NCBI GenBank assembly: GCA_033344815.1
Contig: JAWPMR010000001.1
Span: forward strand, 2,032,136-2,096,135
DNA from: Paracoccaceae bacterium
Lineage (GTDB): Bacteria > Pseudomonadota > Alphaproteobacteria > Rhodobacterales > Rhodobacteraceae
Reading direction: 5' to 3'
DNA: 64,000 nt
In this document: positions 660 through 48,399 of the stretch, piece by piece
Layout: the number at the start of each line of letters is the position of its first letter
Position numbering within the stretch: position 1 is the first letter of the stretch
Made by a program: the position numbers and the translations under genes
Notes under the pieces: generated by a model
Database searches by the model: none
What the model was told of the DNA's origin: nothing
What the model saw: the letters and a program-made list of their open reading frames with translations, nothing else

Positions 660-729
660 AATGGCATAGTTAACGATCCCGTCAGCGGCAGGTTTGCCCT
701 GCCTGTTCAGGTCAGGAGACGACCAAAAC

Positions 730-1632
730 ATGGCAAAAGAACAAACAAATGGCAGCGAATATACCGGCCCGGTACGCCGGCTGCTGATTGCTGTTCTTGT
801 TCTTTGTTTATTAAGCACGTTTCTGGTGTGGCGGATCGACAGCCCTCGCGTGGAACGCTTTCGCGCGCAGGTTACGGACCGCTTTGTCCCGGGCCTTGAT
901 TGGGCCATGTCCCCTGTTACCGGCATCATCAACCTGCTCAAGGATTTTCAAAGCTATCAGCGTCTGGCTGAGCAAAACGGCGAGCTGCGTTCCGAATTGC
1001 GCCGTATGCAAGCATGGAAAGAAGCCGCGCTGCAACTTGAGCAGGAAAACGCGCGGTTGCTTGATCTCAACAAGGTGCGTCTGGATCCGCGCCTGACCTA
1101 TATCACCGGGGTTGTTCTGGCTGACAGTGGCTCGCCATTTCGCCAGTCAGTGTTGCTGAACGTTGGCGCACGTGACGGCATTATTGATGGCTGGGCAACG
1201 ATGGATGGGATCGGCGTCGTTGGACGCATTTCCGGCGTAGGCGAAAATACTTCTCGGGTTATCTTGCTGACGGATGCATCCAGTCGCATTCCTGCGCTCA
1301 TTCAACCATCCGGTCAACGTGTAATCGTCTCTGGTGATAACTCTGCGGCACCGCCGATTGAGTTTCTGGAAGACAGTGATGTGGTGCGCCCCGGACACCG
1401 CGTGATCAGTTCAGGCGATGGTGGCGTGTTCCCTGCCGGGCTTCTGATTGGCCAGGTTGCGGCGGACCCGACGGGTAAGCTACGCGTCAGACTGGCAGCC
1501 GATTATCAGCGCCTGGAATTTCTACGCGTGTTGCGACACCATGGCACCGATCCGGTTTCCGATACGGCCAATATTATCGGACCACAATTGCCCCAGCCGC
1601 CAATAGTCGCACAAGAACAGGTCAACCAATGA
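730..1632 (+). CDS. mreC: Rod shape-determining protein MreC
   Basis: Bitopic membrane protein of the elongasome that links MreB to the periplasmic synthases. 300 residues from the ATG at 730, chosen because AGGAG lies at 714-718; an upstream in-frame ATG at 694 lacks such a site. One transmembrane segment (about residues 15-35, LLIAVLVLCLLSTFLVW) is followed by a coiled coil (about 65-100) and the two beta-barrel domains typical of the family. Its stop overlaps the mreD start by 4 bases, indicating translational coupling. Confidence 0.95.
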   Translation: MAKEQTNGSEYTGPVRRLLIAVLVLCLLSTFLVWRIDSPRVERFRAQVTDRFVPGLDWAMSPVTGIINLLKDFQSYQRLAEQNGELRSELRRMQAWKEAALQLEQENARLLDLNKVRLDPRLTYITGVVLADSGSPFRQSVLLNVGARDGIIDGWATMDGIGVVGRISGVGENTSRVILLTDASSRIPALIQPSGQRVIVSGDNSAAPPIEFLEDSDVVRPGHRVISSGDGGVFPAGLLIGQVAADPTGKLRVRLAADYQRLEFLRVLRHHGTDPVSDTANIIGPQLPQPPIVAQEQVNQ

Positions 1633-2168
1633 CGGAACTGCCTCTGACACGGTTGTGGACGATGCGGCTTGGTTTTGCGCTGTTGGTTTGCGTCATTCTG
1701 TTCTTTCACCTGCTGCCTTTACAGACTACGCCGCAGCGCTGGGTCGGCCCTGATCTGCTCCTCGCTTTTGCTTTTGCCTGGTCTTCACGACGTCCCGAAT
1801 ACGTGCCTGCCCTCGCGCTGGCCGGTCTGTTTTTGTTGGCCGACCTCTTAATGCAGCGGCCACCCGGGCTTTGGGCAATGCTCGCCCTGTTGGCATGCGA
1901 ACATCTCAAGGCGCGCGCGCGAGGTCTGCGGGACGCCAACTTTGCCGCAGAGTGGTTGAGTGTTTGTATTTTAATTGCAGCGATCGCCATGGGATATCGC
2001 GTTGTTTTGATGGTCACTGCAGTTGATTTGCCACAGTTTAGCTTGACCCTTTTCGAAACGCTTATGACAATGTTGTTCTACCCTGTGATTGTCCCAGTTA
2101 CGCATGGAATAATGAGAGTACGCAAAGCAACACCAGGCGATCTGGAACCGTCCGGAAGTCGATCATGA
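1629..2168 (+). CDS. mreD: Rod shape-determining protein MreD
   Basis: Polytopic inner-membrane partner of MreC, 179 residues with five to six predicted hydrophobic helices. Sequence conservation in this family is low; the assignment rests on the hydrophobic profile, the length and the position between mreC (4-base ATGA overlap) and mrdA. Confidence 0.88.
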   Translation: MTELPLTRLWTMRLGFALLVCVILFFHLLPLQTTPQRWVGPDLLLAFAFAWSSRRPEYVPALALAGLFLLADLLMQRPPGLWAMLALLACEHLKARARGLRDANFAAEWLSVCILIAAIAMGYRVVLMVTAVDLPQFSLTLFETLMTMLFYPVIVPVTHGIMRVRKATPGDLEPSGSRS

Positions 2169-2200
2169 GCTGGTCCCAGTACGCTTCAGAAGGTTGAAAG

Positions 2201-4144: not shown

Positions 4145-5280
4145 GCTATCTTGAATATGCCGTAAAATCCGCACCTTCGGGTTTGCGCAAGATATTCTAT
4201 CTGAACTGGCCCGTCGCCTTGCTGCTCGCGTCTGTTTCCGGGGCCGGCTTCTTGATGCTTTATTCCGTGGCAGGCGGATCATTCACCCCTTGGGCCGAAC
4301 CGCAGATGAAGCGTTTTGCCATGGGCTTTACTCTGATGATATGCGTCGCGATGGTACCCATCTGGTTCTGGCGCTCGCTGTCCGGCCTCGCGTATTTGGG
4401 CACGCTGGCATTGTTGGTGGCCGTAGAACTGTTTGGAACGGTCGGCATGGGCGCGCAGCGCTGGATTGATCTGGGGTTCATGCGCCTGCAACCATCCGAG
4501 TTGATGAAAATCACACTGGTGATGTTTCTGGCCGCCTACTACGACTGGTTACCAGCAAAACGTACCTCACATCCGTTTTGGGTGCTGTTGCCAGTATTGA
4601 TTATTCTGATCCCCACATTTCTGGTGTTGCGCCAACCTGACCTTGGAACATCAATTCTTTTGCTCGCTGCCGGTGGCGGTCTGATGTTTCTGGCTGGGGT
4701 TCACTGGGCTTATTTCGCTGCGGTCGTCGCCAGCGCAATAGGATTGATCACGACCGTTTTCCAATCTCGCGGGACGCCATGGCAACTCATAAAAGACTAT
4801 CAGTTCCGGCGGATTGATACCTTTCTCGACCCCAGTACCGACCCCCTCGGTGCGGGCTATCACATCACTCAGTCTAAAATCGCACTTGGATCCGGTGGCT
4901 GGACAGGACGCGGATTCATGCAAGGCACGCAAAGCCGATTGAACTTTCTGCCCGAAAAACACACCGATTTTATCTTTACGACTCTGGCCGAAGAGTTCGG
5001 CTTTCTTGGCGGTGTCTGGCTCCTTGGGCTTTATGCGCTCATCATTATCTTTTGCATCTGGTCAGCTCTGATGAACAAGGATCGCTTTTCCTCGCTCCTG
5101 ACTCTCGGCATCGCATTGAATTTCTTTTTATTCTTTGCAGTAAATATGTCGATGGTCATGGGGATGGCACCGGTTGTCGGTGTTCCGCTGCCGCTGGTCA
5201 GCTATGGTGGGTCCGCAATGCTCGTCTTGATGCTGGCTTTTGGGCTCATGCAAAGCGCTCACGTGCATCGACCGAGGTAG
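4141..5280 (+). CDS. rodA: Peptidoglycan glycosyltransferase RodA
   Basis: SEDS-family polymerase that extends glycan strands from lipid II and forms a complex with PBP2. 379 residues with about ten transmembrane helices. Family motifs are present: RQPDLGTSIL, the loop carrying GWTGRGFMQGTQSRLNFLPEKHTDFIF, and the C-terminal GVPLPLVSYGGSAM. Last gene of the shape operon; its start overlaps mrdA. Confidence 0.96.
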   Translation: MSYLEYAVKSAPSGLRKIFYLNWPVALLLASVSGAGFLMLYSVAGGSFTPWAEPQMKRFAMGFTLMICVAMVPIWFWRSLSGLAYLGTLALLVAVELFGTVGMGAQRWIDLGFMRLQPSELMKITLVMFLAAYYDWLPAKRTSHPFWVLLPVLIILIPTFLVLRQPDLGTSILLLAAGGGLMFLAGVHWAYFAAVVASAIGLITTVFQSRGTPWQLIKDYQFRRIDTFLDPSTDPLGAGYHITQSKIALGSGGWTGRGFMQGTQSRLNFLPEKHTDFIFTTLAEEFGFLGGVWLLGLYALIIIFCIWSALMNKDRFSSLLTLGIALNFFLFFAVNMSMVMGMAPVVGVPLPLVSYGGSAMLVLMLAFGLMQSAHVHRPR

Positions 5281-5286
5281 TCTTCA

Positions 5287-6219
5287 ATGTCCATCAAAGT
5301 CTTGTTTGCTGCTCACTCTGAACGGTGGGATATATACAAACCCGCTTTGGAACAGGCCTTTGCCGCCCTTGCGCTGGATGTTCATCTTGCGACTGACATC
5401 CCCTCGAAAGATGTGGACTACATCGTCTACGCGCCCAATTCTCCGCTGCAGGATTTCACGCCATTCACCCGCGCCAAGGCCGTATTGAACCTCTGGGCAG
5501 GTGTCGAGGCCGTCACAAATAACGCAACCCTTAGTATCCCGCTCGCTCGGATGGTGGATCCAGGGATGACAAAGTCCATGTGCGAATGGGTCGCCGGGCA
5601 CGTCATGCGATATCACCTCGGCATGGACCGGCACATTGTGAACCCGGATCAAAAATGGCAGCCTCATACACCACCGTTGGCTTCAGAGCGCTCTGTCTGC
5701 ATTCTGGGCATGGGCGCACTGGGCACAGCCGTTGCCAAGGTTCTTAACGCGCTTCATTTCAAAGTCAGCGGCTGGAGCAGACGCGAGAAAATAGTTGCTG
5801 GCGTGACGATGTATTATGGGGACGACGGATTGAAAGATGCGCTGGCCAATGCCGAGATACTGGTCTTGCTGCTGCCGGATACCAAGGAGACAGCAAACAC
5901 CCTCAACACCGAGAGCCTCGCCCTACTCCCCAAGGGAGCTTTTGTCATCAACCCCGGCCGCGGTCCTCTGATTGATGATCAAGCTCTCCTGGAAGCACTT
6001 GATAACGGACAGGTGGCACAGGCCACTCTGGATGTATTTCGCGTCGAACCCTTGCCGCAGGATCACCCATTCTGGTCCGATCCAAGGGTAACTGTCACGC
6101 CGCATATTGCCGCAGAAACCCGCGAACACACGGCGTCACAGGTTATTGCCGAAAACGTACGGCGGGGAGAGGCTGGCGAAGAATTCTTACACCTCGTGGA
6201 TCGCAAAAGCGGCTATTGA
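5287..6219 (+). CDS. 2-hydroxyacid dehydrogenase, glyoxylate/hydroxypyruvate reductase A type
   Basis: NAD(P)-dependent D-2-hydroxyacid dehydrogenase of 310 residues, most like GhrA, which reduces glyoxylate and hydroxypyruvate. The Rossmann motif GMGALGTAV lies near residue 142; the catalytic Arg (NPGRGPLID), Glu (FRVEPLP) and His (VTPHIAAETR) are all present. It starts 6 bases after rodA and may be read through from it. Its 3' end overlaps the convergent peptidase gene by 7 bases. Substrate is inferred from family only. Confidence 0.85.
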   Translation: MSIKVLFAAHSERWDIYKPALEQAFAALALDVHLATDIPSKDVDYIVYAPNSPLQDFTPFTRAKAVLNLWAGVEAVTNNATLSIPLARMVDPGMTKSMCEWVAGHVMRYHLGMDRHIVNPDQKWQPHTPPLASERSVCILGMGALGTAVAKVLNALHFKVSGWSRREKIVAGVTMYYGDDGLKDALANAEILVLLLPDTKETANTLNTESLALLPKGAFVINPGRGPLIDDQALLEALDNGQVAQATLDVFRVEPLPQDHPFWSDPRVTVTPHIAAETREHTASQVIAENVRRGEAGEEFLHLVDRKSGY

Positions 6220-8311: not shown

Positions 8312-9373
8312 TCAACTGGCTTCCGCGCGCGCCTGACCACATGTCGCGCAATCGGGTCGACGCGCAATGGAAATTGTACGGCTCTCCCCATAAAGCGCGT
8401 CGTATATGACCATTTGGCCGCGCAAGACTTGACCCGCACCTGTGATGATCTTGATCGCTTCAGCGGCCATCATCGCCCCGATCACACCCGGAAGCGGGCT
8501 CAAGACCCCAGCTTCTGCGCAGGACGGTGCAAGTTCAGGAGCAGGCGCTTGTGGGAAAATGCACCGGTAACAGGGCGCACCGGATTCAGGATCAAAGACG
8601 CTCAGCTGCCCTTCCCATTGGCTCAGAGCGCCGGAAATCAGAGGCATGCTTTGCGCTGTTGCGACTTTATTGACCAGATAGCGCGTTTCGAAATTATCTG
8701 TCCCATCCAAGACCAGATCATATTCTGAAAACAAATCATCTGCGATATCCTCGCTCAACCGGCGATGATAGGGGCGCACATCCACATAAGGGTTTTGCGC
8801 GAGCATTTCAGATTGCGCCGAGAAAACCTTGGGCATGCCGATCGCTTGGTCTTTGTGAATGACCTGACGGGCGAGATTGGCATTCTCGACGACATCATCG
8901 TCAATAACACCGATCTGACCAACGCCTGCGGCCGCGAGATATTGTAAGGCTGGCGCGCCCAAGCCTCCCGCACCAATGATCAGAACCCTTGCTTCTTTAA
9001 GTTTTTTTTGTCCCGGTCCGCCAATTTCACGCAGCACGATATGTCGGGCGTATCGGTTGAGTTCGGCATCGCTGAAACCCGATCTAGGGGTTTCCTGCGT
9101 CTCTGCTTCTTCTTTGCGCGCAGCACGCCTGCGCAAAGCCAACAAGCCGCGCCGATAAGAGAAAATGAGGGCAGCAAATCCACCAAGTAGTAGCCAAGGC
9201 GCGGGACTTTCACCTGTCGCCAATCGCAAAGGAGTTCCAGCAGGCAAGGTGAACTGGATGATCAATACACCGACATAGAACACGCCAATCGCCGTTGCGC
9301 GTGTTGCGCGGGGAACTCCCATGAAACCGCCCAACCCCCAGACAGCTGCCGCCAAGATGACAACCAACAGCAT
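8312..9373 (-). CDS. ThiF/MoeB/HesA-family adenylyltransferase with N-terminal membrane segment
   Basis: E1-like enzyme that adenylates the C-terminus of a small sulfur carrier (MoaD- or ThiS-like). 353 residues. The catalytic part begins about residue 100 (RYARHIVLREIGGPGQ) with the ATP loop GAGGLGAP, and two zinc CxxC pairs (CYRC and CATC). Unlike E. coli MoeB the first 85 residues hold two to three hydrophobic stretches (for example LLLVVILAAAVWGLGGF-like and APWLLLGGFAALIF), suggesting membrane tethering. The start overlaps the dut stop by one base. Confidence 0.9.
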   Translation of the reverse strand: MLLVVILAAAVWGLGGFMGVPRATRATAIGVFYVGVLIIQFTLPAGTPLRLATGESPAPWLLLGGFAALIFSYRRGLLALRRRAARKEEAETQETPRSGFSDAELNRYARHIVLREIGGPGQKKLKEARVLIIGAGGLGAPALQYLAAAGVGQIGVIDDDVVENANLARQVIHKDQAIGMPKVFSAQSEMLAQNPYVDVRPYHRRLSEDIADDLFSEYDLVLDGTDNFETRYLVNKVATAQSMPLISGALSQWEGQLSVFDPESGAPCYRCIFPQAPAPELAPSCAEAGVLSPLPGVIGAMMAAEAIKIITGAGQVLRGQMVIYDALYGESRTISIARRPDCATCGQARAEAS

Positions 9374-9825
9374 CAGGTTTTCCCGGTCGAGCCAAACCCG
9401 GCGGCGCCACGGTCTGTTTCGCTCAGGCGCTCGGCATACGCGAAATCTGCCTGCAGCACGGGCGCGAGAACCAGCTGAGCAATCCGCATGCCATGCGTCA
9501 CTTCGAATGCGTCTCGCCCCGCATTTATGACAATGACTCCCACGGGGCCACGGTAATCGCTGTCAATTGTGCCGGGGCTGTTCACCAGCATGAGCCCGTG
9601 TTTGAGTGCCAATCCAGAACGCGGGCGCACTTGCATTTCATACCCCAAAGGGATCTCCATCTTCAGACCTGTCGGGATCAATGCGCGCTCCCCGGGCGCA
9701 ATCGTCAAGGCACCGCAGGGTAGATTTGCCCGGACATCCGCGCCCGCAGCGCCCGACGTCTGATAAAGGGGCAAGTCTACCGTTTGATCGGCATTCTGTG
9801 CCCATGTCAGTTTGATCTGAACCAA
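9373..9825 (-). CDS. dut: Deoxyuridine 5'-triphosphate nucleotidohydrolase
   Basis: Trimeric dUTPase that hydrolyses dUTP to dUMP and keeps uracil out of DNA. The five motifs are visible: [42 protein letters not shown] and [10 protein letters not shown] at the C-terminus. I prefer the TTG start at 9825 (150 residues, AAGGGG upstream, N-terminus VQIKLTW as in relatives); a TTG at 9852 would give 159. It follows coaBC closely, the coaBC-dut pairing seen in many proteobacteria. Confidence 0.95.
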
Positions 9826-9848
9826 TCTGTTGCCCCTTGGCCTGCGTT

Positions 9849-11042
9849 TCAAGTTAAGGATTGTACGATGCGGTCCGCCAATCTTTCGGCGACCTCTGCC
9901 TTGGTCATTTTGGGCCAGTTCTCCGAACCATTGTCATCGATCACAGTCACAGTGTTCTCGCTGCCCCCCATAACGCCGCTTGATACGGACACATCATTAG
10001 CAACAATCCAATCGCACCCTTTACGGTCCCTTTTGGCAGTTGCGTTCCTGATGACATCGTGCGTTTCCGCTGCAAAACCAATCACCAGTTGCGGACGGTT
10101 GGTTTCTGCCTGTGCCACCTGTTGCAAGATATCCGGGTTTTCGGTGAATTCCAGGTGCGGCACCCCTTCTTTGGACTTTTTCAGTTTGTGATCAACCGCC
10201 CCGGTCACACGCCAATCGGCCACCGCCGCTGCGAACACGCCTGCGTCAACTGGCAAGCTCGCCTCTACGGCCTTCAGCATCTCCTGTGCAGTTTGCACAT
10301 TGATGACCTCCACGTCTTGCGGCGGTGGAACATCGGCAGGACCGCTCACAAACACCACATGCGCGCCCTGTGCCGCAAGGGCGCGCGCAATGGCTGTACC
10401 CTGTGCGCCAGAGGATCTGTTGGCGATGTATCGGACCGGATCGATTGGTTCATGGGTAGGCCCGGACGTGACCAGAATACGTTTTCCATTCAGTGGCCCA
10501 TTCACCAGGCGTGACTCAATCGCGGCGACGATTTCCAGCGGCTCGGCCATGCGCCCCGGTCCAAATTCACCACAGGCCATGTCTCCTTCATTTGGCCCAA
10601 TCAGAAAGACCCCGTCTTTTTCGAGTTTCGTAAGGTTGCGCCGCGTCGCGGCATGTTCCCACATGCGCACGTTCATTGCCGGCGCGATCAAGACAGGCGT
10701 GTCCGTCGCCAATAGCAATGTACTGGCAAGATCATTTGCAAAACCACCCGCCATTTTTGCCATCAGGTCGGCCGTGGCGGGCGCGACCACGACCAAATCA
10801 GCCACGCGGCTGAGCTGAATATGACCCATTTCTGCTTCATCTGTGAGGTCGAATAAATCCCGGTAAACCTTGGCTCCAGCCAAAGCAGACACCGATAACG
10901 GCGTCACAAATTCTTCGCCCGCCTTCGTCAAAACCGGTGTGACCGAAGCTCCTCGCTCGCGCAGACGACGGATCAGATCAAGTGACTTGAACGCGGCAAT
11001 ACCACCACCGATGATCAGCAAAATATGTTTTCCAGTCAGCAT
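9849..11042 (-). CDS. coaBC: Bifunctional phosphopantothenoylcysteine decarboxylase/synthetase
   Basis: Catalyses two steps of coenzyme A synthesis: ligation of cysteine to 4'-phosphopantothenate (CoaB) and FMN-dependent decarboxylation (CoaC). 397 residues from the ATG at 11042 ([14 protein letters not shown]). The CoaC half carries the catalytic His in [18 protein letters not shown] and the PAMNVRMW motif; the CoaB half begins near residue 190 with [16 protein letters not shown] and NRSSG. In-frame codons upstream are not supported by a ribosome site. Confidence 0.95.
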
Positions 11043-39069: not shown

Positions 39070-40296
39070 ATGGACCTAGAGGGATGCCCCGAAAAGCAAA
39101 TAATGCAAGCATCACATCGGGTATGTTCCGTAGAAGAGACACTGGCACGCATCCTGCCCATGAAGCATGAGTTTGGCATCACACGCATCGCCAATGTAAC
39201 CGGTCTGGATCGAGTCAATATTCCCGTCGCGATCGCAATCCGACCCAATGCGCGATCTATTGCAATCTCGCAAGGCAAGGGGCGAACCTATGCTCACGCC
39301 AAAACATCCGCCCTTATGGAGGCCATCGAGATCTGGCACGCTGAGCATTTCGAAGGCGAGGTTTACTACGCCAGCGCCGCAGATCTTTCGCGAACACATC
39401 AAATGATCGATCTATCCCGACTGCCGCGAACGCCGGGACCAGATTTGCCCATGACGATGCGAATGCATTGGGTCAAAGCTCTGGATCTGATGAGCGAAAC
39501 GGAAAAACTGGTGCCCCTGGAGATGGTCCACGCAGATTACACACACCCGGTTTCGGGCGATTGCGGATTCTTCCCGGCAAGCACAAACGGTTTGGCCTCG
39601 GGCAACCATTTCCTCGAAGCGACCTGCCATGCGATTTGCGAGGTGATTGAACGGGACGCCTTGTCCGTGTGGTATCACTTGCCCGTCGATGCACGGCGCG
39701 CAACCCGGCTTGATCCGGGATCGCTCACCGCTGCAGGGCATGTCGCGACCCTTGAAAAATACTCAAACGCCGGACTGACCTGTGCAATGTGGGATGTCAC
39801 AAGTGATGTTGGTGTGCCAACTGTACTCTGCCTGATTTATGAAAACGACACCGCGGCGGGGCATATTGGCCTTGGTTCAGGCACGCATCCGGATCCGGAA
39901 ACGGCATTGCACCGTGCCATGAACGAAGCCGCACAAACCCGGTTGAATTATATCACCGGGGCACGGGAGGACTTGTTTCACGACGAATACAGTCTGCAAG
40001 GACGTCAGCACAAAAACGATTCCTTTGCCGACTTGCTGATCGAGCATCCACAGATGCGCAAAATCAGTGCAATGACCGGAGTCGTCAATAGAACCCTGCA
40101 GGCCGATCTTGAGTGGCTTAAGGCAAAACTCGGCGCGGCGGGCATTGAAGAAATTACCGTTGTCGACCTGACGCGCAGGGAATTCGGGATCCCGGTGGTG
40201 CGGGTGGTCATTCCGGGTCTGGAAGCGCCCCACGACGATGCCACGTACATTTTGGGTGACAGGGCAAAGAGCGCAAGGGGTCGGATCACGATATGA
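39070..40296 (+). CDS. YcaO-domain ATP-dependent cyclodehydratase/thioamide synthetase
   Basis: 408 residues. YcaO enzymes phosphorylate a backbone amide oxygen; with TfuA partners they install thioamides. ATP/Mg residues are in place: ALMEAIE (Glu84, Glu87), EATCHAICEVIERDA (Glu191, Glu194, Arg195) and HRAMNEAAQTR (Glu286, Arg291). The C-terminus (RGRITI) lacks the proline-rich PxPxP tail of azoline-forming cyclodehydratases, and no E1-like or RRE domain is fused, consistent with the TfuA-associated class. GTG 39067 precedes the chosen ATG. Overlaps tfuA by 4 bases; a LysR regulator is divergent. Confidence 0.93.
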   Translation: MDLEGCPEKQIMQASHRVCSVEETLARILPMKHEFGITRIANVTGLDRVNIPVAIAIRPNARSIAISQGKGRTYAHAKTSALMEAIEIWHAEHFEGEVYYASAADLSRTHQMIDLSRLPRTPGPDLPMTMRMHWVKALDLMSETEKLVPLEMVHADYTHPVSGDCGFFPASTNGLASGNHFLEATCHAICEVIERDALSVWYHLPVDARRATRLDPGSLTAAGHVATLEKYSNAGLTCAMWDVTSDVGVPTVLCLIYENDTAAGHIGLGSGTHPDPETALHRAMNEAAQTRLNYITGAREDLFHDEYSLQGRQHKNDSFADLLIEHPQMRKISAMTGVVNRTLQADLEWLKAKLGAAGIEEITVVDLTRREFGIPVVRVVIPGLEAPHDDATYILGDRAKSARGRITI

Positions 40297-41084
40297 TAAT
40301 CGTCCTCGCGGGCCCGTCCATTGCAACGCTCAAACCGCCCTGCATGGGTAAGATCGAGATACGCCCCCCCGCTCAACAAGGGGATATCTATCTGGCCGCT
40401 TTGGAAAAACCGGATGCGATTGGTGTTATTGACGGGTATTTCGAAGGTGTTCCTGCGTTGTGGCACAAGGAAATCTTATGGGCCATGGCGCAAGGCATTC
40501 CCGTCATGGGCGCTTCCAGTATGGGGGCGCTTCGGGCGGCAGAGCTGGAAGCCTTTGGCATGATCGGTGTCGGCGCGATCTTCGAAGACTACCGTGACGA
40601 AAAGCTGGAGGATGACGATGAAGTTGCGCTTTTGCACGGCCCGCAGGAAGTTGGATACCCCGCGCTAAGTCTTGCAATGGTAAACGTGCGTGCGACGCTC
40701 AAGGCTGCGCGCGAGGCCAAAAGCATAACGCATTCTCAAACAGAACAGATTCTGAAGTTGGCGAAATCAGAGTTCTACAAAACCCGGACCTGGGACAGCG
40801 TCTTTGGCGCAGTAGACTCCAGTATTCTGTCAGAGCGAGAGGCTCATGATCTGCGCAACTGGATCAAAACCCACGGCATTGACCAAAAGAAGTTAGACGC
40901 GATGGCGCTTATTGATCGACTTGAGAACGGTCAGTTCGAACTCCCCCAGCCAAATTATCATTTTGAGGAAACCGATCTTTGGCTCAATGCCACAAAGGTC
41001 TGGCGCCAACGAGAGAGATCCAAACCCAACATTGAGGAAGACGGGTATCGGCTGCTTGGGTCCATAACCGCATTGGACGAATAG
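40293..41084 (+). CDS. tfuA: TfuA-like protein, YcaO partner
   Basis: 263 residues. TfuA proteins, named after the trifolitoxin cluster, work with YcaO in thioamidation and have been implicated in sulfide delivery. The family core is evident: AGPSI at the N-terminus, PPAQQGDIYLA, IGVIDGYFEGVPALWHKEILWAMAQGI, MGASSMGALRAAEL and the acidic DDDEVALLHGP. Coupled to ycaO through an ATGA overlap. The remaining C-terminal ~120 residues are helical and less conserved. Confidence 0.92.
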   Translation: MIIVLAGPSIATLKPPCMGKIEIRPPAQQGDIYLAALEKPDAIGVIDGYFEGVPALWHKEILWAMAQGIPVMGASSMGALRAAELEAFGMIGVGAIFEDYRDEKLEDDDEVALLHGPQEVGYPALSLAMVNVRATLKAAREAKSITHSQTEQILKLAKSEFYKTRTWDSVFGAVDSSILSEREAHDLRNWIKTHGIDQKKLDAMALIDRLENGQFELPQPNYHFEETDLWLNATKVWRQRERSKPNIEEDGYRLLGSITALDE

Positions 41085-41144
41085 ACGGAAGCTCTTTTTT
41101 GCGTTAGCCATGGGGGAGCAACGGCAACTGGAGAACACCGTATC

Positions 41145-42401
41145 ATGGCCGGAACGCGGTTCAAATTGTTCCCCCAACCCCGATTTTTGGACGATTATCG
41201 AGAGCCTGAGATTGTTGAGGTTTCTTCACCCGCCGGCAGCCTTGCGCCGGGTCCTTCTGATGATCGTATGTACACTATTTTTCCCATTGGGAAAGAAGAT
41301 CCCTACGGCATTGCGCCTGATGGTTCCGCAGTCCTCGCACCACCATGGCAAGGCGCAATAGAACCAATGGCAATGCCGGATGCGGAAGGTCACTTTGACT
41401 ATCTGGAACCTGGCACGCCTCAGTTTGAAACAGCGCATCTGTTTGGTACCGTGCGCTTTGTGATGGACATCTGGGAGGATTATTTTGATCGCCCGATCCC
41501 GTGGCAAAGCGACAAGACACATGATCGCCTTGAGCTCACCATTCTGCACTCGCTGGAGAACGCCTATTCCGGGTATGGTTTCATTGAAATGGGTGTGGAT
41601 CTCTCGACGGGCATTCTGAAACCTTTCAGTTTGAACTTCGATGTAATCGCACATGAACTAGGTCACGCGATCATCTATTCCGAGATCGGCGTGCCAGATC
41701 CGAACAATGTCACAGGCGAATACTTCGGGTTCCACGAAAGTGCCGCCGATCTTGTCGCGTTGTTATCCTCACTGCATTTCAATTCCCTGGTGGACCTGCT
41801 GCTGGAGAATACCAGCGGCAATCTTTACATGCTGAACGCCGTGAACCGGATGGCGGAACTTTCAGAAAACAAGCAGATCAGGATCGCGGCAAATGACAAA
41901 CGGCTGAGCGAATTTGCCCAGGGCTGGGTCAAGGAACACCACCTTTCGCAACCTTTGACCGGGGCATTCTTTGATATTCTAGTCGATCTTTTTCACGAAA
42001 TGCTGCTGGATTACGATGCCATTTCACCCGAAATGGAGGATCTGTCAGATCAGCTTCTGGCGACATCGCAATATGCCCCAGTAATGCAGGACCTGTTTGA
42101 CGAAGCCTACGCCGCCAATCCGGATAAGTTCAAAATGGCGCTGCTGGATGCGCGTGATATTCTGGGTACATATTTGGCTGATACCTGGCAAAGACTGAGC
42201 CGACAGGACCTGAATTTCGTTGATGTCGCTGATGTTTTTCTCGACGTTGACCGCGCGCATACCGGCGGGCGGTTTGAACGCCTCATAGAAGGAAATTTTA
42301 AACTGCGCGATATTGGCTATGTCGAAGTTGGCCCGCAACTGGAACCTTTAGGCAAGGATAGTCACGCAAATTCGGTACGTACGATTGTTCCATTGGACTG
42401 A
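41145..42401 (+). CDS. M4-like (gluzincin) zinc metallopeptidase, cytoplasmic
   Basis: 418 residues without signal peptide or propeptide. Zinc site HELGH at residues 170-174 in FDVIAHELGHAIIY, third ligand probably Glu198 in GFHESAADLVALL, matching the HExxH...ExxxD layout of thermolysin-like enzymes with a slightly longer spacing. N-terminal 100 residues are Pro/Asp-rich and unassigned. It lies 60 bases after tfuA and 75 before the repeat-tailed protein gene, so a role in trimming or handling the modified product is plausible but inferred. GGAG lies about 12 bases before the ATG. Confidence 0.8.
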   Translation: MAGTRFKLFPQPRFLDDYREPEIVEVSSPAGSLAPGPSDDRMYTIFPIGKEDPYGIAPDGSAVLAPPWQGAIEPMAMPDAEGHFDYLEPGTPQFETAHLFGTVRFVMDIWEDYFDRPIPWQSDKTHDRLELTILHSLENAYSGYGFIEMGVDLSTGILKPFSLNFDVIAHELGHAIIYSEIGVPDPNNVTGEYFGFHESAADLVALLSSLHFNSLVDLLLENTSGNLYMLNAVNRMAELSENKQIRIAANDKRLSEFAQGWVKEHHLSQPLTGAFFDILVDLFHEMLLDYDAISPEMEDLSDQLLATSQYAPVMQDLFDEAYAANPDKFKMALLDARDILGTYLADTWQRLSRQDLNFVDVADVFLDVDRAHTGGRFERLIEGNFKLRDIGYVEVGPQLEPLGKDSHANSVRTIVPLD

Positions 42402-42441
42402 AAAACGAGAATACGCTAAGTATTGAATAGAACCGGCTAAA

Positions 42442-42462
42442 CGGGAGTAATTTTCGCTCCTG
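42442..42462 (+). promoter_or_regulatory. Small hairpin before the repeat-protein ribosome site
   Basis: CGGGAG and CTCCTG form a six-pair stem (one G-U) around a 9-base loop, directly upstream of AAAGGA (42463-42468). Could be an attenuator or processing site raising expression of the last gene relative to the enzymes. Stem is short, so chance is possible. Confidence 0.3.
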
Positions 42463-42476
42463 AAAGGAAAAAAGTT

Positions 42477-42965
42477 ATGTCAGAATCAATCTTTGCATCT
42501 TCATCCATTGTCTTGTTCGGCCGCGAGGTTGATGATCTGGCGGTGATCAAAAAAGCCGCGGCCACGGCGACAACTTTCAGCAAGGACAAGAACCAGTTCG
42601 CTCGAATTTATGGATTTACATATGACGGGACGTACTATGAGATTCCCACGCCTGTATTGTTCATGACGAGCAGCAAGGGGGTCAAGGCGTCGACTGTCGA
42701 TGTACCCGGGCCGAACCCGAAGGAAAAGAAGTTCTTCGAAAGCCTGCTGGCATGGACCGTAAGCCAAAAGGATGAGACCGTGCGTCTCGATGTAGACCAG
42801 GGCAAATTTGAAGACGTCTTGCTCGCAGTTGGGATCGATGGGATGGGCACAGGTGTTGGTGCAAACCGTGTATCGGGCGCCAAAGTTTCGGGCGCCAAGG
42901 TCTCCGGGGCCAAGGTTTCTGGTGCAAAAGTATCCGGAGCTCGGATTTCAGGCGCGCGCGATTAG
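42477..42965 (+). CDS. Repeat-tailed protein, candidate YcaO/TfuA substrate
   Basis: 162 residues with a strong ribosome site (AAAGGA, 8 bases before ATG). I recognise no family. Residues 1-128 form a soluble, lysine/aspartate-rich domain (SSIVLFGREVDDLAVIKKAA, FARIYGFTYDGTYYEIPTPVLF, FFESLLAWTVSQKDETVRLDV). A Gly-rich hinge (GIDGMGTGVGAN) leads into six tandem pentapeptides of pattern [VI]SGA[KR] and a final Asp. No Cys is present. Fourth gene after ycaO-tfuA-peptidase on the same strand. The leader-plus-repeat layout suits a modified precursor; alternatively the tail could be a short pentapeptide-repeat-like beta structure or a nucleic-acid-binding basic tail. Confidence 0.85.
   Translation: MSESIFASSSIVLFGREVDDLAVIKKAAATATTFSKDKNQFARIYGFTYDGTYYEIPTPVLFMTSSKGVKASTVDVPGPNPKEKKFFESLLAWTVSQKDETVRLDVDQGKFEDVLLAVGIDGMGTGVGANRVSGAKVSGAKVSGAKVSGAKVSGARISGARD
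42870..42959 (+). repeat. Six tandem 15-base units encoding [VI]SGA[KR]
   Basis: Six in-frame 15-base units at the 3' end of the repeat-protein gene. The units differ almost only at synonymous sites: Ser is TCG, TCC, TCT or TCA; Gly is GGC, GGG, GGT or GGA; Ala is GCC, GCA, GCT or GCG. The peptide is kept while the DNA has diverged, which points to selection on the amino-acid repeat rather than recent slippage. Confidence 0.95.
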
Positions 42966-42984: not shown

Positions 42985-44775
42985 TCAAAGCCCTGCGCGT
43001 TTCATGCCATCATAAAAGTGCTGAGTATCCTCTGCGAACTTGTCCGGCTGTACCGACGCCCAGCGTTCAACAGAGAAATTGGGATGCGCTTTGCGCACCA
43101 AATCTGCCTGCGCCCGAGCTTCATCGAGACGATCCAGATAGGCATAGCTCGCCGCGAGGATACGACGACCTTCGGTGGGATTCTGCATTGTTTGAATTGC
43201 GTTTATTGCGTCTTCATATTGCTCGAGCGCGAAATAAGCGCCACCCAGATGCCAGATGTATTGGTCGGGGTAAAACGGGTTTAGGCGCATGGCTTTTTGA
43301 AGCATTTCGACAGCTTCTTCGGAACGTCCCATGTGCACCAATGCATCTGCCATGTCTGACATGACATCGGCGTCGTTTGGATTTAGCTTCAAAGCCCGCT
43401 CATAAGAGTTAATCGCCGGATCGTGCTCTTTGCGGTAAAGATGCGCAAAACCAAGTTCGCCAAAACCACGCGCGTCGGCCTCGTCCAGATCAATCGCCTG
43501 GCGTGCAAAAATCAATGCATCATCCAATGCAGCTTCTGGGTTGTCAGCCCAATCATAGCGCCAGTCCAGGTTGAAAGTACGGGATTTTGCCGCATAGGCA
43601 CGTGAATACCGTGAATCACTGGTAATGGCGTTCTCGTACAGCCCACGTGCCTGACGTACTTCCGGTTGCGTATATTTGTGCACGTGTCGATGACCTTTGA
43701 GTACAAACCCGTAGGCCATCAGATTGGCTGGCGGCAACAAGCGCATACGATCCCGTTCAGTCGCTTCAATCCGCGCGGCTGTCGCGCTGACAATGATCTG
43801 CGTGATCTCATCCTGCAGATCAAAGATATCTTCGACGTTACGGTTGTATTGTTCACCCCAAATGGTTCGGTCTTGCAAGGCGTCCAGGAGTTGTAGAGTG
43901 ATACGGATCCGGGAGCCGGCCTTGCGCACCGTCCCGTCGACCGCATAACGGACACCCAACTCCCGCGCGGCCTGTGCCGGCGATTTAGTACGGTCCATAT
44001 ACATATTCGCGGATCCGCGCGCGATCACGAAAAATTCCTGAAACCGTGACAGATTGGTGGTGACGTCTTCTGTCAAGCCTTCTGCAAACCACTGATCATC
44101 CGTGTTGCTCCCCTGAAATCCAAAAGGCAGAACGACGATGGACTGGTTCGCGATGGGGCGTTCTTTGAACTCAGCAGAGTTTTCGAGGTTGCGGCGCAGT
44201 CCTGGCGTCATGGCCGCGGTCGTCGGGTTTTCATGCACTTGAAAGACATCGATTGTTCGGCCGATGTTCTTGAAATCCTGACCGCCAAGATATTCGTAAC
44301 CATAGCCTAGCTTGTTGCTGACATGATCATAGGCGGCGCCTGAAATACACACTTGCCCAGGTGAGGCAAAAGCTTCAATCCGAGCCGCAATGTTGATGCT
44401 TTCACCGGTAATTTCATCGCCACTGACAAGTATTTCACCAAGATTGATGCCAAACCGGAACCAGATCTGCTCTTCTTCCGACAAACCTTCGTTTTCAACC
44501 GCCAGCGTTTTTTGCATTTCTACTGCAAAAGTAACTGCGTCGACGGCGCTTTCGAACACCATAAAAGCATTGTCACCTGCTGACCCCTTGAAATCACCGG
44601 AATACGCGCGAATGGATTCACGGAATTTTTCCAGTCGGTTAGCAACTGAGATGGTTGTACCGACCTCATCCACGCTCATCATGCTGCTAAAATTTGCCAC
44701 GTCGGCAAAAACGATCGCCACAAGGCGTCGCCTGAGATTTCTGCGCAATCCAGATGTATTCTCTGTGCTACTCAC
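42985..44775 (-). CDS. Class III adenylate/guanylate cyclase with TolB-like and TPR domains
   Basis: 596 residues starting at GTG 44775. Cyclase domain (about 15-185): metal Asp25 in FADVANFS, Asp68 in GSAGDNAF, and Asn128/Arg132 in ESINIAARIEAF, so catalysis is plausible. A TolB N-terminal-like domain follows (about 212-335, QSIVVLPFGFQGSNTDDQWFAEGLTEDV) and then TPR repeats (about 400-560, YERALKLNPNDADVMSDMADALVHMGR). No transmembrane segment. This architecture is frequent in alphaproteobacteria. Its start overlaps the GNAT gene by 8 bases, and it converges on the repeat-protein gene with 19 bases between. Confidence 0.9.
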   Translation of the reverse strand: MSSTENTSGLRRNLRRRLVAIVFADVANFSSMMSVDEVGTTISVANRLEKFRESIRAYSGDFKGSAGDNAFMVFESAVDAVTFAVEMQKTLAVENEGLSEEEQIWFRFGINLGEILVSGDEITGESINIAARIEAFASPGQVCISGAAYDHVSNKLGYGYEYLGGQDFKNIGRTIDVFQVHENPTTAAMTPGLRRNLENSAEFKERPIANQSIVVLPFGFQGSNTDDQWFAEGLTEDVTTNLSRFQEFFVIARGSANMYMDRTKSPAQAARELGVRYAVDGTVRKAGSRIRITLQLLDALQDRTIWGEQYNRNVEDIFDLQDEITQIIVSATAARIEATERDRMRLLPPANLMAYGFVLKGHRHVHKYTQPEVRQARGLYENAITSDSRYSRAYAAKSRTFNLDWRYDWADNPEAALDDALIFARQAIDLDEADARGFGELGFAHLYRKEHDPAINSYERALKLNPNDADVMSDMADALVHMGRSEEAVEMLQKAMRLNPFYPDQYIWHLGGAYFALEQYEDAINAIQTMQNPTEGRRILAASYAYLDRLDEARAQADLVRKAHPNFSVERWASVQPDKFAEDTQHFYDGMKRAGL

Positions 44776-45388
44776 GGCCCTCTTTCCAACAGGTCGGTGT
44801 AAATGAAAGGTCGCAGGATTGCATCACCGTTTCAATGACCTGCTCTCTTTTGGCTAACCATTCCGAACCCAAAATACCAGCAATTACGATATCTTTTCTT
44901 TCGCCTTCAACGAACCACCCTTCACGGAACTTCCCCTCATCAATAAATCCAAGCTTATTGATTGCCCGTTTCGTTGCAGCATTGTCATCACGATAAAAGG
45001 TTGTAACCCGGTGCAATCGCAGGCGCTTGAATGCAAGATCCAAAACGCACACCGCCATTGCCGATGCCAGTCCCTTCTTCCTGAAAGGCTTGGCAACGAA
45101 GAAGGGCAGCACCCCATCTCCTTGGATGTAGTTTACAGATTCCAGCCCCGCGATACCAAGAGGTTCACCGTTTTCAGTTTCGGCAATGAACCAAAACCCG
45201 CAGGGAGATTTTTGATATTCGATGGATTTGCTCCAACTTTCACGAAGCGCGTCCTCACTTGTTGGAACGGGAAGCGACCTATCAAAAAGGGCGACGTCCT
45301 GAAAATCCCAGAACCAGTTTGAAATATTTGCAATGTCGGCAAGCGCCAAGGGACGCCAGGTGATGTCTCCAGTGGTTTCTATTGACAT
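44768..45388 (-). CDS. GNAT family N-acetyltransferase
   Basis: 206 residues from ATG 45388 (MSIETTGDITWRPLAL), supported by AGGAA upstream; a longer open frame to 45538 adds a non-conserved basic tail. Core motifs: WFIAETENGEPLGIAGLE, FFVAKPFRKKGLASAMAVCVLDLAF and NAATKRAINKLGFIDEGKFREGW. Coupled to the cyclase gene. Target unknown; RimJ/RimL-like. Confidence 0.87.
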   Translation of the reverse strand: MSIETTGDITWRPLALADIANISNWFWDFQDVALFDRSLPVPTSEDALRESWSKSIEYQKSPCGFWFIAETENGEPLGIAGLESVNYIQGDGVLPFFVAKPFRKKGLASAMAVCVLDLAFKRLRLHRVTTFYRDDNAATKRAINKLGFIDEGKFREGWFVEGERKDIVIAGILGSEWLAKREQVIETVMQSCDLSFTPTCWKEGRE

Positions 45389-45816
45389 AGAGTTATTCCT
45401 ATCAAACTTTTTAAAAATTGATCGACGCCGACCGCGCGTTTCAGCTCCGTGACAGCGTTTCGCAAAAGAAACTACGTCGAGAATGTTAATAACCCAAAGT
45501 ATGACCGCCCTTACCCGCTTTGCAACATTTTTAAGCACTCAGTTCAGCATTCCACTGTCCAGGATCGCAGGAAAAAACTGACAAGGCTCCAATTTCAAAA
45601 AGTCTTTTTATGGCGTAGACGTCTGAAACCGGGCTGGAAAAGGTTCAATCCATTCTCAAAAGACCTCAAACGCCAAACCCGTAAAATGCACGTTTTGATG
45701 GACAGAGAAAATCTGCGCGCGGCTGACCCAAAACACCAAAACAATTCCATTTTTATCTGATAACGGAGCATTAAGCGCTCACATATAGTAGTTTTTCAGG
45801 TTTCTTGAGAGTTCCA
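45389..45816. other. Intergenic region upstream of GNAT and the GGDEF-EAL gene
   Basis: A 428-base divergent region. A plus-strand open frame of 103 codons at 45449-45760 has no ribosome site, many basic residues and no recognisable domain, so I do not call it. AT-rich stretches near 45400-45420 and 45745-45800 probably hold the two divergent promoters. Confidence 0.55.
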
Positions 45817-48399
45817 ATGCACCTGAAGAACGACGCTATAGCTGGGGACACCACCAAGCTGCTGGTCGATGCACTGGCGCTGCCCGCCTTCATTGTTGGT
45901 TTGGATCACTCTGTAATCTTCACAAACGCCCTGGCAGACACCCTCTTGCTGGATAGCGAGGGTAATTCGCTTCTCGGTCGTTCCATACAATCCCTTCTCT
46001 CGCAGGACAAAGAAACCCAGTGCTTGGACGAACCGTTCTTTTCCCTCACGCAGACCGCTACCCGTACTGTCCGTCTCAATTCTGTCGGATCCAAAAGCGT
46101 CGAATTTTCTGTTTCCGCCCTGAAAGATCCGCAGGGTTCTGTCTTCAGCTATTTGTTTCAATGGCAACGACCTACGGAACAATCGCTCCAAGACGGGTCA
46201 GATGCGACCGGCCTGCATCGCGACACCAAACCAAGACATGTGGGAAAAGCCGCTGAAAAAACGGGTCAATCCAGCTGGGAGACGCGCTGTCATATCGAGA
46301 ACGATTGGCGTTGGCAAACAACGATATTAAGCGCGAACCACGCTATTTGGGACCATGATTTTGAGCGAGATCAGCATTTTGTTTCCGAGACCTGGCGTCA
46401 ACTGCGAGGTCTTTCTCAAGACGATCCATTCCCAAAATCCAATGAGGCTTGGTTGGAAACCATTCATCCCCAGGATGTTGACCATATTAAGAATGAGCTC
46501 CGGCGTCTCGATTCCCAGGAGACAGACATCATTGACTACAAGTTCCGGCAAAAACACACGCTCGGACATTGGGTTTGGTTCATGAGTAGCGGTCGTGTCA
46601 TGCGCCGTGATAAATCGGGCCTGCCGGCGCGTATCATCGGGACTGATACGGACATTACCGATATCAAAACTGTCGAGTTGGAACGACACCGGATGGCAGA
46701 TCGTCTGCATATCGCAATGGAAGCCGCTGGCATGGCGAGATGGGAATTCGACGTAGGAGCGAATTATGCGTATTGGGACGATCGCATGCTTGAGATCTTT
46801 GAGATCACGGATGGCATAAATATACGCAGCTCAAACGCTTGGGCAAACTACATTTATCCAGACGACAGAGAAGCAACACTCGCATTAGCGGCAGAATGCC
46901 TTGAACAAGGGAAAGACATAGCATGCGATTATCGTCACATGCGAAAAGACGGAAGCATCAGGCATATCCGGACACGCGGCAAATACGTTCGCGATAAAGA
47001 ACACGGAGCACGATACTACGGCGTCAACTTTGACGTAACGCGCGATTACGAGCGCGCAGAAGAACTTGAACAAGCGCGGGCCCGTCTGGAACATGACAGC
47101 CGCCACGACGCACTCACGGGTTTAGCAAATCGCAGATACCTCGACGATGTATTCACGCGACAGTCGCAATATCTGGACCGCGCAGATCTCAGGCCCGCAA
47201 TCCTTCACTTTGACATCGATTATTTCAAGCAAATAAATGACACTCTTGGACATGATGCAGGTGATGCCACTCTGAAACACGCCGCAGAAATCCTGAGAAA
47301 AAACGTGCCCGAAGATGCATTGGTTGCCCGCGTGGGGGGAGACGAATTCGTCGTGCTCCTGCTGAGTGCGCCCGACCCTTCCGAGTTGGAAGAAATAGCC
47401 AAGAATATCATTGGCGACATGTCACAACCGTTTTTTTATGGATCTCAACAATGCAATACGGGAACCAGCATTGGCATCGCTGTAGCCGAAGATGCGGAAC
47501 CCTTGGACAACGGGTTGTTCATCAACGCCGATCTTGCACTCTATGCGGCAAAAAAGGCAGGTCGCGGCCGGCTTCAGTTTTTCACCCGAGAAATGAAAAC
47601 AGAGGCGCGCCGTCGGAAAAACTCTTTTGACGCTCTGCTGGCGGGATTTGATAACGGCGAGATAACTTGCCATTACCAACCACAGTTTGACGCACAAACC
47701 TTGGAAATGACGGGTTTGGAAGCCCTTGTGCGGTGGGAAAGCAAGAAATTTGGGTTGATTATGCCAGATGAGTTTCTGTCGACCGCCGAAGACATGGGTC
47801 TAGTGGCGCATTTCGACGAACTCGTCTTGAGGAAGACACTGCACGATCTTGAAAAATGGGAAATGCAAGGATTTGATATCCCAAGAATTTCCGTCAATGT
47901 TTCATCGCATCGACTGAACGACCCTACTCTGATCAAACAGTTAAAACCTATGGGTATTCCGGAGGGTAAGATAGCATTTGAATTGCTTGAGTCCGCATTT
48001 CTGGATCTAAAAAACGAAGTTATCGAACGGAATCTAAAACAGATAGAACGTATGGGTATCGACGTGGAAATCGACGATTTCGGGAGCGGGCATGCCTCGA
48101 TAGTAAGCTTGCTACAAGTTGCCCCGAAGCGTTTGAAAATCGACCGTTTTTTGATTGAGCCAATTGTGGCTTCAAATCGTCAGCGAGATTTGATCAAAAC
48201 CATTATCGGGATCGGCCAAATGCTCGATGTACAGGTTGTCGCAGAGGGCGTAGAATCCTGGGAACATGTCAAGGTCTTGCAGGAAATCGGATGCTGTTAC
48301 TTACAAGGATACGGTCTGGCGCGCCCTATGGACGCTGAAGGGGTGAGTACATTCATGCGAGAGTTGGTAACCAAAAATGGATGTCTGGCATTTGGTTGA
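45817..48399 (+). CDS. PAS-PAS-PAS-GGDEF-EAL cyclic-di-GMP signalling protein
   Basis: 860 residues from ATG 45817, no membrane segment. Three PAS-like domains (about 10-90, 165-275, 290-405), a GGDEF domain with VGGDEFVVLL near residue 506, and an EAL domain (LEALVRW near 633, ISVNVS, FELLES, IDDFGSGHAS, LKIDRFLI, VVAEGVES). The diguanylate cyclase motif is canonical; the inhibitory RxxD site upstream is replaced (PEDA). EAL metal and catalytic residues look present, so both synthesis and hydrolysis of c-di-GMP are possible. Ligand of the PAS domains is unknown. Confidence 0.94.
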   Translation: MHLKNDAIAGDTTKLLVDALALPAFIVGLDHSVIFTNALADTLLLDSEGNSLLGRSIQSLLSQDKETQCLDEPFFSLTQTATRTVRLNSVGSKSVEFSVSALKDPQGSVFSYLFQWQRPTEQSLQDGSDATGLHRDTKPRHVGKAAEKTGQSSWETRCHIENDWRWQTTILSANHAIWDHDFERDQHFVSETWRQLRGLSQDDPFPKSNEAWLETIHPQDVDHIKNELRRLDSQETDIIDYKFRQKHTLGHWVWFMSSGRVMRRDKSGLPARIIGTDTDITDIKTVELERHRMADRLHIAMEAAGMARWEFDVGANYAYWDDRMLEIFEITDGINIRSSNAWANYIYPDDREATLALAAECLEQGKDIACDYRHMRKDGSIRHIRTRGKYVRDKEHGARYYGVNFDVTRDYERAEELEQARARLEHDSRHDALTGLANRRYLDDVFTRQSQYLDRADLRPAILHFDIDYFKQINDTLGHDAGDATLKHAAEILRKNVPEDALVARVGGDEFVVLLLSAPDPSELEEIAKNIIGDMSQPFFYGSQQCNTGTSIGIAVAEDAEPLDNGLFINADLALYAAKKAGRGRLQFFTREMKTEARRRKNSFDALLAGFDNGEITCHYQPQFDAQTLEMTGLEALVRWESKKFGLIMPDEFLSTAEDMGLVAHFDELVLRKTLHDLEKWEMQGFDIPRISVNVSSHRLNDPTLIKQLKPMGIPEGKIAFELLESAFLDLKNEVIERNLKQIERMGIDVEIDDFGSGHASIVSLLQVAPKRLKIDRFLIEPIVASNRQRDLIKTIIGIGQMLDVQVVAEGVESWEHVKVLQEIGCCYLQGYGLARPMDAEGVSTFMRELVTKNGCLAFG

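Follow-up and report, generated by a model that had tools for sequence, protein, structure and literature searches.

We analyzed a 64,000-nucleotide window of the genome of a Roseobacter-like bacterium of the Paracoccaceae (contig JAWPMR010000001.1, positions 2,032,136 to 2,096,135) that contains a cluster of four genes, encoding a YcaO enzyme, a TfuA protein, an HExxH peptidase, and a repeat protein that we call Rep, all on the + strand at window positions 39070 to 42965. Our reading, to which we give a probability of roughly 55%, is that this cluster works as a YcaO-TfuA system for a ribosomally synthesized and post-translationally modified peptide (RiPP), whose precursor has a large folded leader and a core that varies and in most cases repeats. 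The family to which it belongs is widespread and undescribed in the literature that we saw; we class it as a variant of the YcaO-TfuA RiPP systems. Judged by its sequence, Rep has the anatomy of a RiPP precursor, with a conserved leader-like domain and a variable core encoded beside YcaO and TfuA, and by analogy its tail is probably thioamidated. A preliminary description of the locus had listed four same-strand genes separated by an ATGA overlap and gaps of 60 and 75 bases, a YcaO with intact ATP residues and no PxPxP tail, an unsecreted HExxH...ESAAD peptidase, and a 162-residue protein with a six-unit [VI]SGA[KR] tail. The open reading frames (ORFs) and the DNA bear out the layout, an alignment with MJ1094 and the C-terminus bear out the YcaO, the motifs, an N-terminus inspected by eye, and a thermolysin-like fold bear out the peptidase, and the repeat tail was recovered at residues 132 to 161.

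The linkage of these genes was surveyed by a pattern-and-tblastn scan of genome contigs with an alignment of the peptidase, from which we analyzed the best 80 of 150 relatives (loci carry L numbers and genomes G numbers below). Both YcaO and TfuA were found in 78 of the 80 loci, or 78 of the 79 that could be judged (L076 is cut at the peptidase). Rep was present in all 74 loci whose sequence extends far enough, one of these Reps (L087) being cut short; each of the six remaining loci stops 0 to 341 bases after its last core gene, and the first Rep residues are visible in L072, L078, and L080. A class III nucleotide cyclase was found in 65 of the 80 loci, and 13 of the 15 others are cut on at least one side.

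A survey of 99 relatives from the genus and family, own genome included, gave Rep matches in 14: 12 of the 19 same-genus genomes (own included), the same-family genome G025, and G091. The G091 match (L026), a 469-residue pentapeptide-repeat protein, was matched by the tail only and dropped as spurious. All 12 true matches outside the own genome sit in a YcaO-TfuA-peptidase-Rep array. Within the genus, peptidase identity is 80 to 89%, apart from two divergent copies at 54 to 56%, and the peptidase is better conserved than YcaO, TfuA, and Rep; G008 and G015, of the same genus, carry a second cluster lineage with AYSGGK units.

Across 385 genomes of the class, eight peptidase matches had E < 1e-100, all eight within ~1 kb of TfuA, and all six Rep matches that include the N-domain lie at those peptidase-TfuA loci. 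Two peptidase loci have no Rep match: the G129 contig ends there, and G269 is the other case. These counts leave aside 7 of the 13 Rep-profile matches (G091 among them), which cover only model positions 150 to 197, in the tail, as well as seven weak peptidase matches in six genomes (E 3.5e-18 to 1.7e-4). The second sample consisted of 237 genomes from the family of G443, the Mesorhizobium waimense genome that carries L054. Here 32 peptidase matches had E < 1e-80 (six weaker ones, E 1.2e-26 to 3.7e-22, were not counted), and 30 of them have TfuA within ~1 kb. The two without it are G534, in which the contig starts within the peptidase gene, and G484; neither genome has a TfuA or YcaO match. At the level of gene content, the genes for Rep, the peptidase, YcaO, TfuA, and the class III cyclase recur as one unit across alpha-, beta-, and gammaproteobacteria.

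For Rep, neither Pfam nor NCBIfam gave a family at E <= 1, and the window copy had no match in phage records. In an AlphaFold2 model based on a 57-sequence alignment, an N-domain of ~120 residues is predicted to be folded and the tail to be disordered. Per ten residues, the predicted local distance difference test score (pLDDT) is 84 to 94 at residues 11 to 20 and 41 to 110, 77 at 111 to 120, and about 65 to 67 at 1 to 10 and 21 to 40; it is below 50 in the tail (residues 123 to 162). The modeled N-domain matched no PDB fold at E <= 0.001 (best 0.49). Mean column identity in the 57-sequence alignment is 23%, and complete Reps are 148 to 321 residues long. The window tail consists of four VSGAK units, one VSGAR, and one ISGAR, followed by D, and its repeat score is 20.6, whereas none of 2000 shufflings of the last 60 residues scored above 5. 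Neighboring units differ by 20.5 synonymous changes over 22.8 sites and by 2.5 non-synonymous changes over 52.2 sites. Because the units differ almost wholly at synonymous sites, the repeat must be maintained by selection and does not reflect recent duplication of the DNA. A pentapeptide-repeat beta-helix was considered for the tail and rejected. Pentapeptide repeats follow the consensus A(D/N)Lxx and form a beta-helix; the window protein has no Pfam match at E 1, its tail is predicted to be disordered, and pentapeptide-repeat NCBIfam models gave only weak matches, in up to 19 of the 57 Rep relatives (best 7.2e-5).

We then compared the tails of 75 Reps (the window copy plus 74). Tandem units were present in 63, with a period of five residues in 37, six in 25, and seven in 1; the 12 Reps without a repeat are those of L079, L081, L082, L085, L087 (cut), L090, L101 to L104, L106, and L107. 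Unit sequences differ by lineage (VSGAR, AYSGGK, VSGSR, GMNAR, QSRAMM, and others) and are uniform inside one tail. Arg or Lys is preceded by Ala, Ser, or Gly at 430 of 435 places. None of the 75 tails contains Cys, and the consensus units of L063, L070, and L093 (GANAR, GMNAR, and RARLQA) also lack Ser and Thr; those of L050 and L074 lack Arg and Lys. Many tails end in an acidic tip, such as GDASD, GGNSD, or GNGD. Between units, the ratio of non-synonymous to synonymous differences per site (pN/pS) was 0.10 over 62 tails (pS 0.75, pN 0.077; 74 proteins examined), and between the window copy and four relatives it was 0.16 to 0.26 in the tail and 0.18 to 0.38 in the N-domain. Purifying selection keeps the units of a given tail alike. 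On these alignments, Rep comprises an N-terminal domain of its own family that is followed in most members by a tail of tandem five- to six-residue units under purifying selection. The Reps of one non-repeat branch (L101 to L104, L106, L107, L125 to L127, L129, L130, and L147 to L160) have a single conserved end, for example YAxxMxLAHRxGRL or MALAPQRHRD.

The window YcaO is the sole YcaO match in its own genome. Its nearest PDB chain is MJ1094 (6pe3, E 4.5e-37), a YcaO that acts in McrA thioamidation, and in comparison with MJ1094 the ATP motifs are intact (SALMEAIE at 80, HAICEVIERDA at 187, and NEAAQTR at 285). The C-terminus (...GDRAKSARGRITI) ends in SARGRITI and lacks PxPxP, a C-terminal mark of azoline YcaOs. 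The ATP motifs carry Met, His, and Ala, one per motif. These are the residues preferred in TfuA-associated YcaOs (Malit et al. 2021, PMC8120280); their pairing with individual motifs is our own assignment. Among NCBIfam models, those for McrA glycine thioamidation scored 239.6 bits for YcaO (TIGR03266, cut-off 365) and 204.5 bits for TfuA (NF033432, cut-off 235.2), both below cut-off. Against NF040716, by name an S12 methylthiotransferase accessory factor, YcaO scored 31.8 bits, also below cut-off (700); YcaOs of this type have been tied to uL16 (PMC13063428). The nearest PDB chain to TfuA is 6xp8 (E 8.7e-29).

TfuA of many relatives is an ORF of 430 to 470 residues with a C-terminal extension, and the window copy is shorter. 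The extension is often ~190 residues, and the copy at L057:5562-6968 is weakly similar to TIGR04500 (PpiC-related peptide maturation, E 0.0049). At L085:4548-6929, a single 793-residue ORF matches both YcaO and TfuA, an apparent fusion; the C-terminal end of the L085 Rep looks frameshifted by eye.

The peptidase has 418 residues and carries the motifs HELGH (170 to 174) and HESAADL (197 to 203), in which H170, E171, H174, E198, and D202 are invariant in 42 aligned sequences. It has nothing above cut-off in Pfam or NCBIfam and no PDB sequence match at E <= 1. Its AlphaFold2 model (42-sequence alignment, mean pLDDT 87.3) gave 30 PDB matches at E <= 0.001 in Foldseek (best E 4.2e-8), which by title are M36/M4 metalloproteases. 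The predicted structure is a thermolysin-like M4/M36 fold with HExxH plus a downstream Glu, thus sharing fold and HExxH...E site with thermolysin (M4) and fungalysin (M36). Unlike secreted M4/M36 peptidases, it starts MAGTRFKLFPQ and by eye shows no hydrophobic N-terminus, secretion sequence, or prodomain.

Contrary to the four-gene limit first drawn for the locus, a convergent cyclase-TPR gene and a GNAT gene behind it also recur at related loci (Table 1). By place, 17 of the 65 cyclases lie upstream on the YcaO strand, 44 are convergent behind Rep, and 4 are elsewhere; four of the 17 upstream-cyclase loci have a 4-base overlap of the cyclase. L044 and L048 have no cyclase in ~4.9 kb to the left and 6.3 to 6.4 kb to the right of the cluster. 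Matches to PF00211 number 1 to 17 per same-genus genome (n = 19, 3.7 to 5.4 Mb), with three in the own genome; the extremes, in two of 39 genomes, are 32 and 63. Because this background is low, we estimate that chance would place a cyclase within ~7 kb in a few per cent of cases, and more often in the two match-rich genomes. Two cyclases of relatives resemble, below cut-off, NCBIfam families from peptide-modification systems: the long cyclase of L090 matches TIGR03903 (TOMM_kin_cyc; E 5.7e-141, 471.7 bits, cut-off 705.75), the match beginning past the kinase part, and the short cyclase of L057 weakly matches TIGR04510 (mod_pep_cyc; 4.1e-9, 35.5 bits, cut-off 400).

A GNAT gene is linked to the cluster in 37 of the 80 loci, of which 24 carry GNAT1 and 13 carry GNAT2, without overlap, and the window GNAT is 38% identical to GNAT1 of L077. 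A Crp-type regulator lies near the cluster in 14 of 80 loci; CRP-like sites are not in excess in the window (29 matches compared with 26.6 expected). No transporter gene had been seen at the outset, and consistent with this, no transporter family is widely shared among the 30 largest neighbor clusters, few of which are annotated: an ABC ATPase cluster that looks generic occurs in 11 of 80 loci, and sugar-ABC-type genes in 4.

Table 1. Features of the cluster and its neighbors, in window coordinates.
Feature	Position	Strand	Basis or remark
YcaO enzyme, thioamide-type candidate	39070..40296	+	Pfam YcaO E 3.2e-78
TfuA partner protein, short form	40293..41084	+	Pfam TfuA E 5.7e-48; ATGA overlap with YcaO
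Thermolysin-like zinc peptidase (predicted), HELGH...HESAAD	41145..42401	+	60-base gap after TfuA; fold match
Rep, putative precursor: leader-like domain and repeat tail	42477..42965	+	75-base gap after peptidase
Rep predicted beta-rich N-domain, residues 1-122	42477..42842	+	AlphaFold2 model
Rep six-unit [VI]SGA[KR] tail, residues 132-161, putative modified region	42870..42959	+	Repeat analysis
Class III nucleotide cyclase with TPR repeats, convergent with Rep	42985..44775	-	Pfam Guanylate_cyc 2.4e-8, TPR_2 2.6e-14
GNAT acetyltransferase, upstream of cyclase, same strand	44768..45538	-	NCBIfam GNAT models

YcaO could also begin at a GTG at 39067, and the true start of the GNAT gene is probably internal to its ORF. 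Just past the GNAT gene, a large + strand ORF (45805 to 48399) contains VGGDEFV and EAL-like sequence by eye, which suggests a second nucleotide-signaling gene near the locus. Gene order varies among relatives: in L088, a 616-residue ORF that is amidohydrolase-like by eye (8399-10249) lies between peptidase and Rep, and in L101, L102, and L103 (Microvirga) the peptidase gene lies on the other strand and converges with a cyclase-YcaO-TfuA-Rep array.

Several observations weigh against a simple thioamidation account. One branch (Microvirga, Rhizobium, Sinorhizobium, and others) has YcaO-TfuA and Reps without repeats, with a conserved end such as LAHRxGRL. Conversely, repeats persist in loci without YcaO. 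Peptidase genes occur in 124 plasmid records, 115 of them from Rhizobium, and among the 60 plasmid matches listed, peptidase identity is 48 to 51% in 24 and 33 to 40% in 36. In the second group, L125, L126, L127, L129, and L130 encode YcaO, TfuA, and the peptidase together with a Rep whose end does not repeat. Four Rhizobium plasmid loci of the first group (L122, L123, L124, and L128) have no YcaO or TfuA within 7 kb and carry cyclase, peptidase, and Rep on one strand. The plasmid records p42c and pRlBT01b contain neither YcaO nor TfuA; the L124 record holds two YcaO genes elsewhere, therefore action in trans is possible there. G484 lacks YcaO and TfuA genome-wide and keeps cyclase, peptidase, and a Rep with RSSGG units. 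L077, from a metagenome-assembled genome (MAG) of the Acidiferrobacterales (1-5530), has a peptidase, a VSGGR-repeat Rep, and a cyclase, with no YcaO-TfuA in the 3.4 kb upstream, where an unrelated 1075-residue ORF occupies the expected place. TfuA had no match in this MAG, which is possibly incomplete and was not searched MAG-wide for YcaO. Acidiferrobacterales are gammaproteobacteria.

The four Rhizobium plasmid loci and G484 form one YcaO-less clade with support of 100, in a tree built by a quick method without a mixture model that gave a long-branch warning, one such branch being at this clade, and that left L076 and L077 ungrouped. Because L077 is separate from this clade, the presence or absence of YcaO-TfuA requires at least two changes. 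Within the Rhizobium clade, pN/pS is 0.00 to 0.14 in the tail and 0.11 to 0.38 in the N-domain (four pairs, ~32 tail codons each). Tail constraint thus exceeds that of the N-domain in this clade, which argues that the tail has a role needing no YcaO in cis. The three-gene cyclase-peptidase-Rep array was seen at L122, L123, L124, L128, and L163, on Rhizobium plasmids and in G484. In three annotated YcaO-less plasmids, a protein of ~112 residues comes next after the array, and the L122 copy has no Pfam family.

The preliminary description had proposed an undescribed thioamidation system in which the Rep tail is the target, and had named common occurrence of Rep without ycaO-tfuA as a finding that would count against it. 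That finding was made only in part: the peptidase was found with them in 78 of 79 assessable loci, 30 of 32 matches in the G443 family, and 8 of 8 in the class genomes, and Rep occurs without them in the Rhizobium plasmid/G484 clade and L077. What stands of the proposal is a dedicated precursor-like Rep, its N-domain structured and its repeat tail variable, that is strongly linked to YcaO-TfuA and to an unsecreted thermolysin-like peptidase; the cyclase was overlooked, and YcaO-less lineages exist. In a RiPP system of this kind, YcaO would activate backbone carbonyls of the tail with ATP and TfuA would help to deliver sulfide, probably converting up to one amide per unit to a thioamide. The site could, as a guess by analogy with the Pro-Arg thioamide of the thiovarsolins, be the small residue (Ala, Gly, or Ser) before Arg or Lys. 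The N-domain would act as the recognition leader, and the thermolysin-like peptidase would act inside the cell, detaching the tail from the leader, separating the units, or both. GNAT, where encoded, may acetylate the released peptides, and the TPR or STAND-TPR cyclase would couple the pathway to cyclic-nucleotide signaling, as a regulator or as a peptide sensor.

Because there are YcaO-less lineages and a linked cyclase, thioamidation is not the whole story. Peptide signaling may be the core function and thioamidation an addition: Rep would be a multi-copy oligopeptide precursor (intracellular or re-imported), the peptidase would free the peptides, the TPR cyclase would sense them and make a cyclic nucleotide, and YcaO-TfuA would usually harden the peptides but could be lost. 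TPR proteins of the RRNPP family bind short peptides, and the cyclase persists with peptidase and Rep at L122, L123, L124, L128, G484, and L077; the 17 upstream cyclases, four with the 4-base overlap, and the nearby Crp-type regulators point the same way. However, we saw no exporter, the window has no excess of CRP sites, and L044 and L048 lack a cyclase despite long flanks, and we regard this explanation as unlikely, if a serious contender. Rather doubtful, in our view, is a more specific peptide-to-cyclic-nucleotide circuit, in which a leader-borne array of thioamidated penta- or hexapeptides, cut intracellularly, is the ligand of the adjacent TPR or STAND-TPR cyclase, and thioamidation makes the signal more stable or adjusts it, although some lineages can do without it. 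Alternatively, Rep may stay whole, its thioamidated or plain tail working in place by binding metal, nucleic acid, or membrane and the peptidase serving turnover or quality control. The absence of a widely shared transporter among the listed neighbor clusters, the acidic tip of many tails, and the single conserved end in the non-repeat branch fit this idea, which we nonetheless find improbable: units that vary between lineages yet are uniform within a tail look more like peptide products than like a fixed binding surface.

Two further explanations concern the chemistry. YcaO and TfuA could have a different cellular protein as their substrate, in the way that YcaO modifies uL16 in Escherichia coli and, with TfuA, McrA, their neighbors being chemically unrelated. 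The closest curated families are indeed McrA-glycine thioamidation proteins, and of the 25 TfuA matches in the 385 class genomes (21 genomes), 17 are without this peptidase; the very frequent linkage to a precursor-like partner across alpha-, beta-, and gammaproteobacterial records nevertheless makes this very improbable. Formation of azolines or another heterocycle on tail Ser, instead of thioamides, would suit the Ser in most units (VSGAR, AYSGGK, and VSGSR). Yet TfuA is present, the YcaO end lacks PxPxP, no tail has Cys, and no cyclodehydratase partner was noticed among the neighbor clusters, most of them unannotated. Because Ser, Thr, and Cys are all missing from three consensus units, azoline cannot be the shared chemistry, and we consider this explanation extremely unlikely.

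In the Rep family the boundary between leader and core is clear, the core exists in many natural variants, a dedicated peptidase is encoded alongside, and lineages without YcaO-TfuA offer natural controls; the chemistry and the rule of site choice are therefore directly testable. YcaO-TfuA pairs are common in Proteobacteria, and the linked cyclase raises the question of whether modified peptides serve cyclic-nucleotide signaling rather than warfare. No earlier description of a YcaO-TfuA-peptidase-repeat-cyclase family was found among the titles, abstract openings, and passages seen in openly licensed PubMed Central (PMC) literature, in line with the initial statement that no characterized cluster of this make-up was known. 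According to passages of PMC8939145, branch 6 of the ATP-grasp enzymes contains complex loci with adenylate cyclases, and those ATP-grasp enzymes are tied to YcaO and TfuA. Those loci are built on ATP-grasp ligases, whereas none was noticed here, in an analysis with no search aimed at ATP-grasp.

The TfuA-related proteobacterial RiPP clusters of Malit et al. 2021 have the same YcaO-TfuA pair (PMC8120280). More than 500 such clusters were counted in Rhizobium, and our guess is that they may include the present family; the words "repeat" and "cyclase" are both absent from the main text of that paper, in which the thioamidated RiPPs then known are all described as actinobacterial. RiPPER, as described in PMC6511847, seeks ORFs of 20 to 120 residues in apparently non-coding DNA, in contrast to the 148 to 321 residues of complete Reps, which suggests that precursor finders restricted to that range overlook proteins of this kind. 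The McrA glycine thioamidation proteins provide the closest curated families (TIGR03266 and NF033432) and solved chains (MJ1094 and 6xp8); here YcaO and TfuA fall below the curated cut-offs, and the partner is a precursor-like repeat protein.

For Rep, the closest anatomy, by analogy, is that of the repeating thiovarsolin precursor. In Streptomyces varsoviensis, a repeating VarA core gives rise to N-acetylated, thioamidated APR peptides with the thioamide at Pro-Arg; the passages of PMC6511847 on this cluster describe it as having no specific protease and propose an endogenous acetyltransferase. The thiovarsolin system (VarA/VarY/VarT) and the present one share YcaO, TfuA, and a precursor-like protein with repeating units. 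Of the thiovarsolin-type marks (tandem core units, a thioamide before Arg, and the heme-oxygenase-like VarO), tandem units and a small residue before Arg or Lys are seen here. The family described here differs from the actinobacterial cluster in a leader-like domain that is predicted to fold, in the linkage of a thermolysin-like peptidase and a cyclase, and in a GNAT that is linked in 37 of 80 loci.

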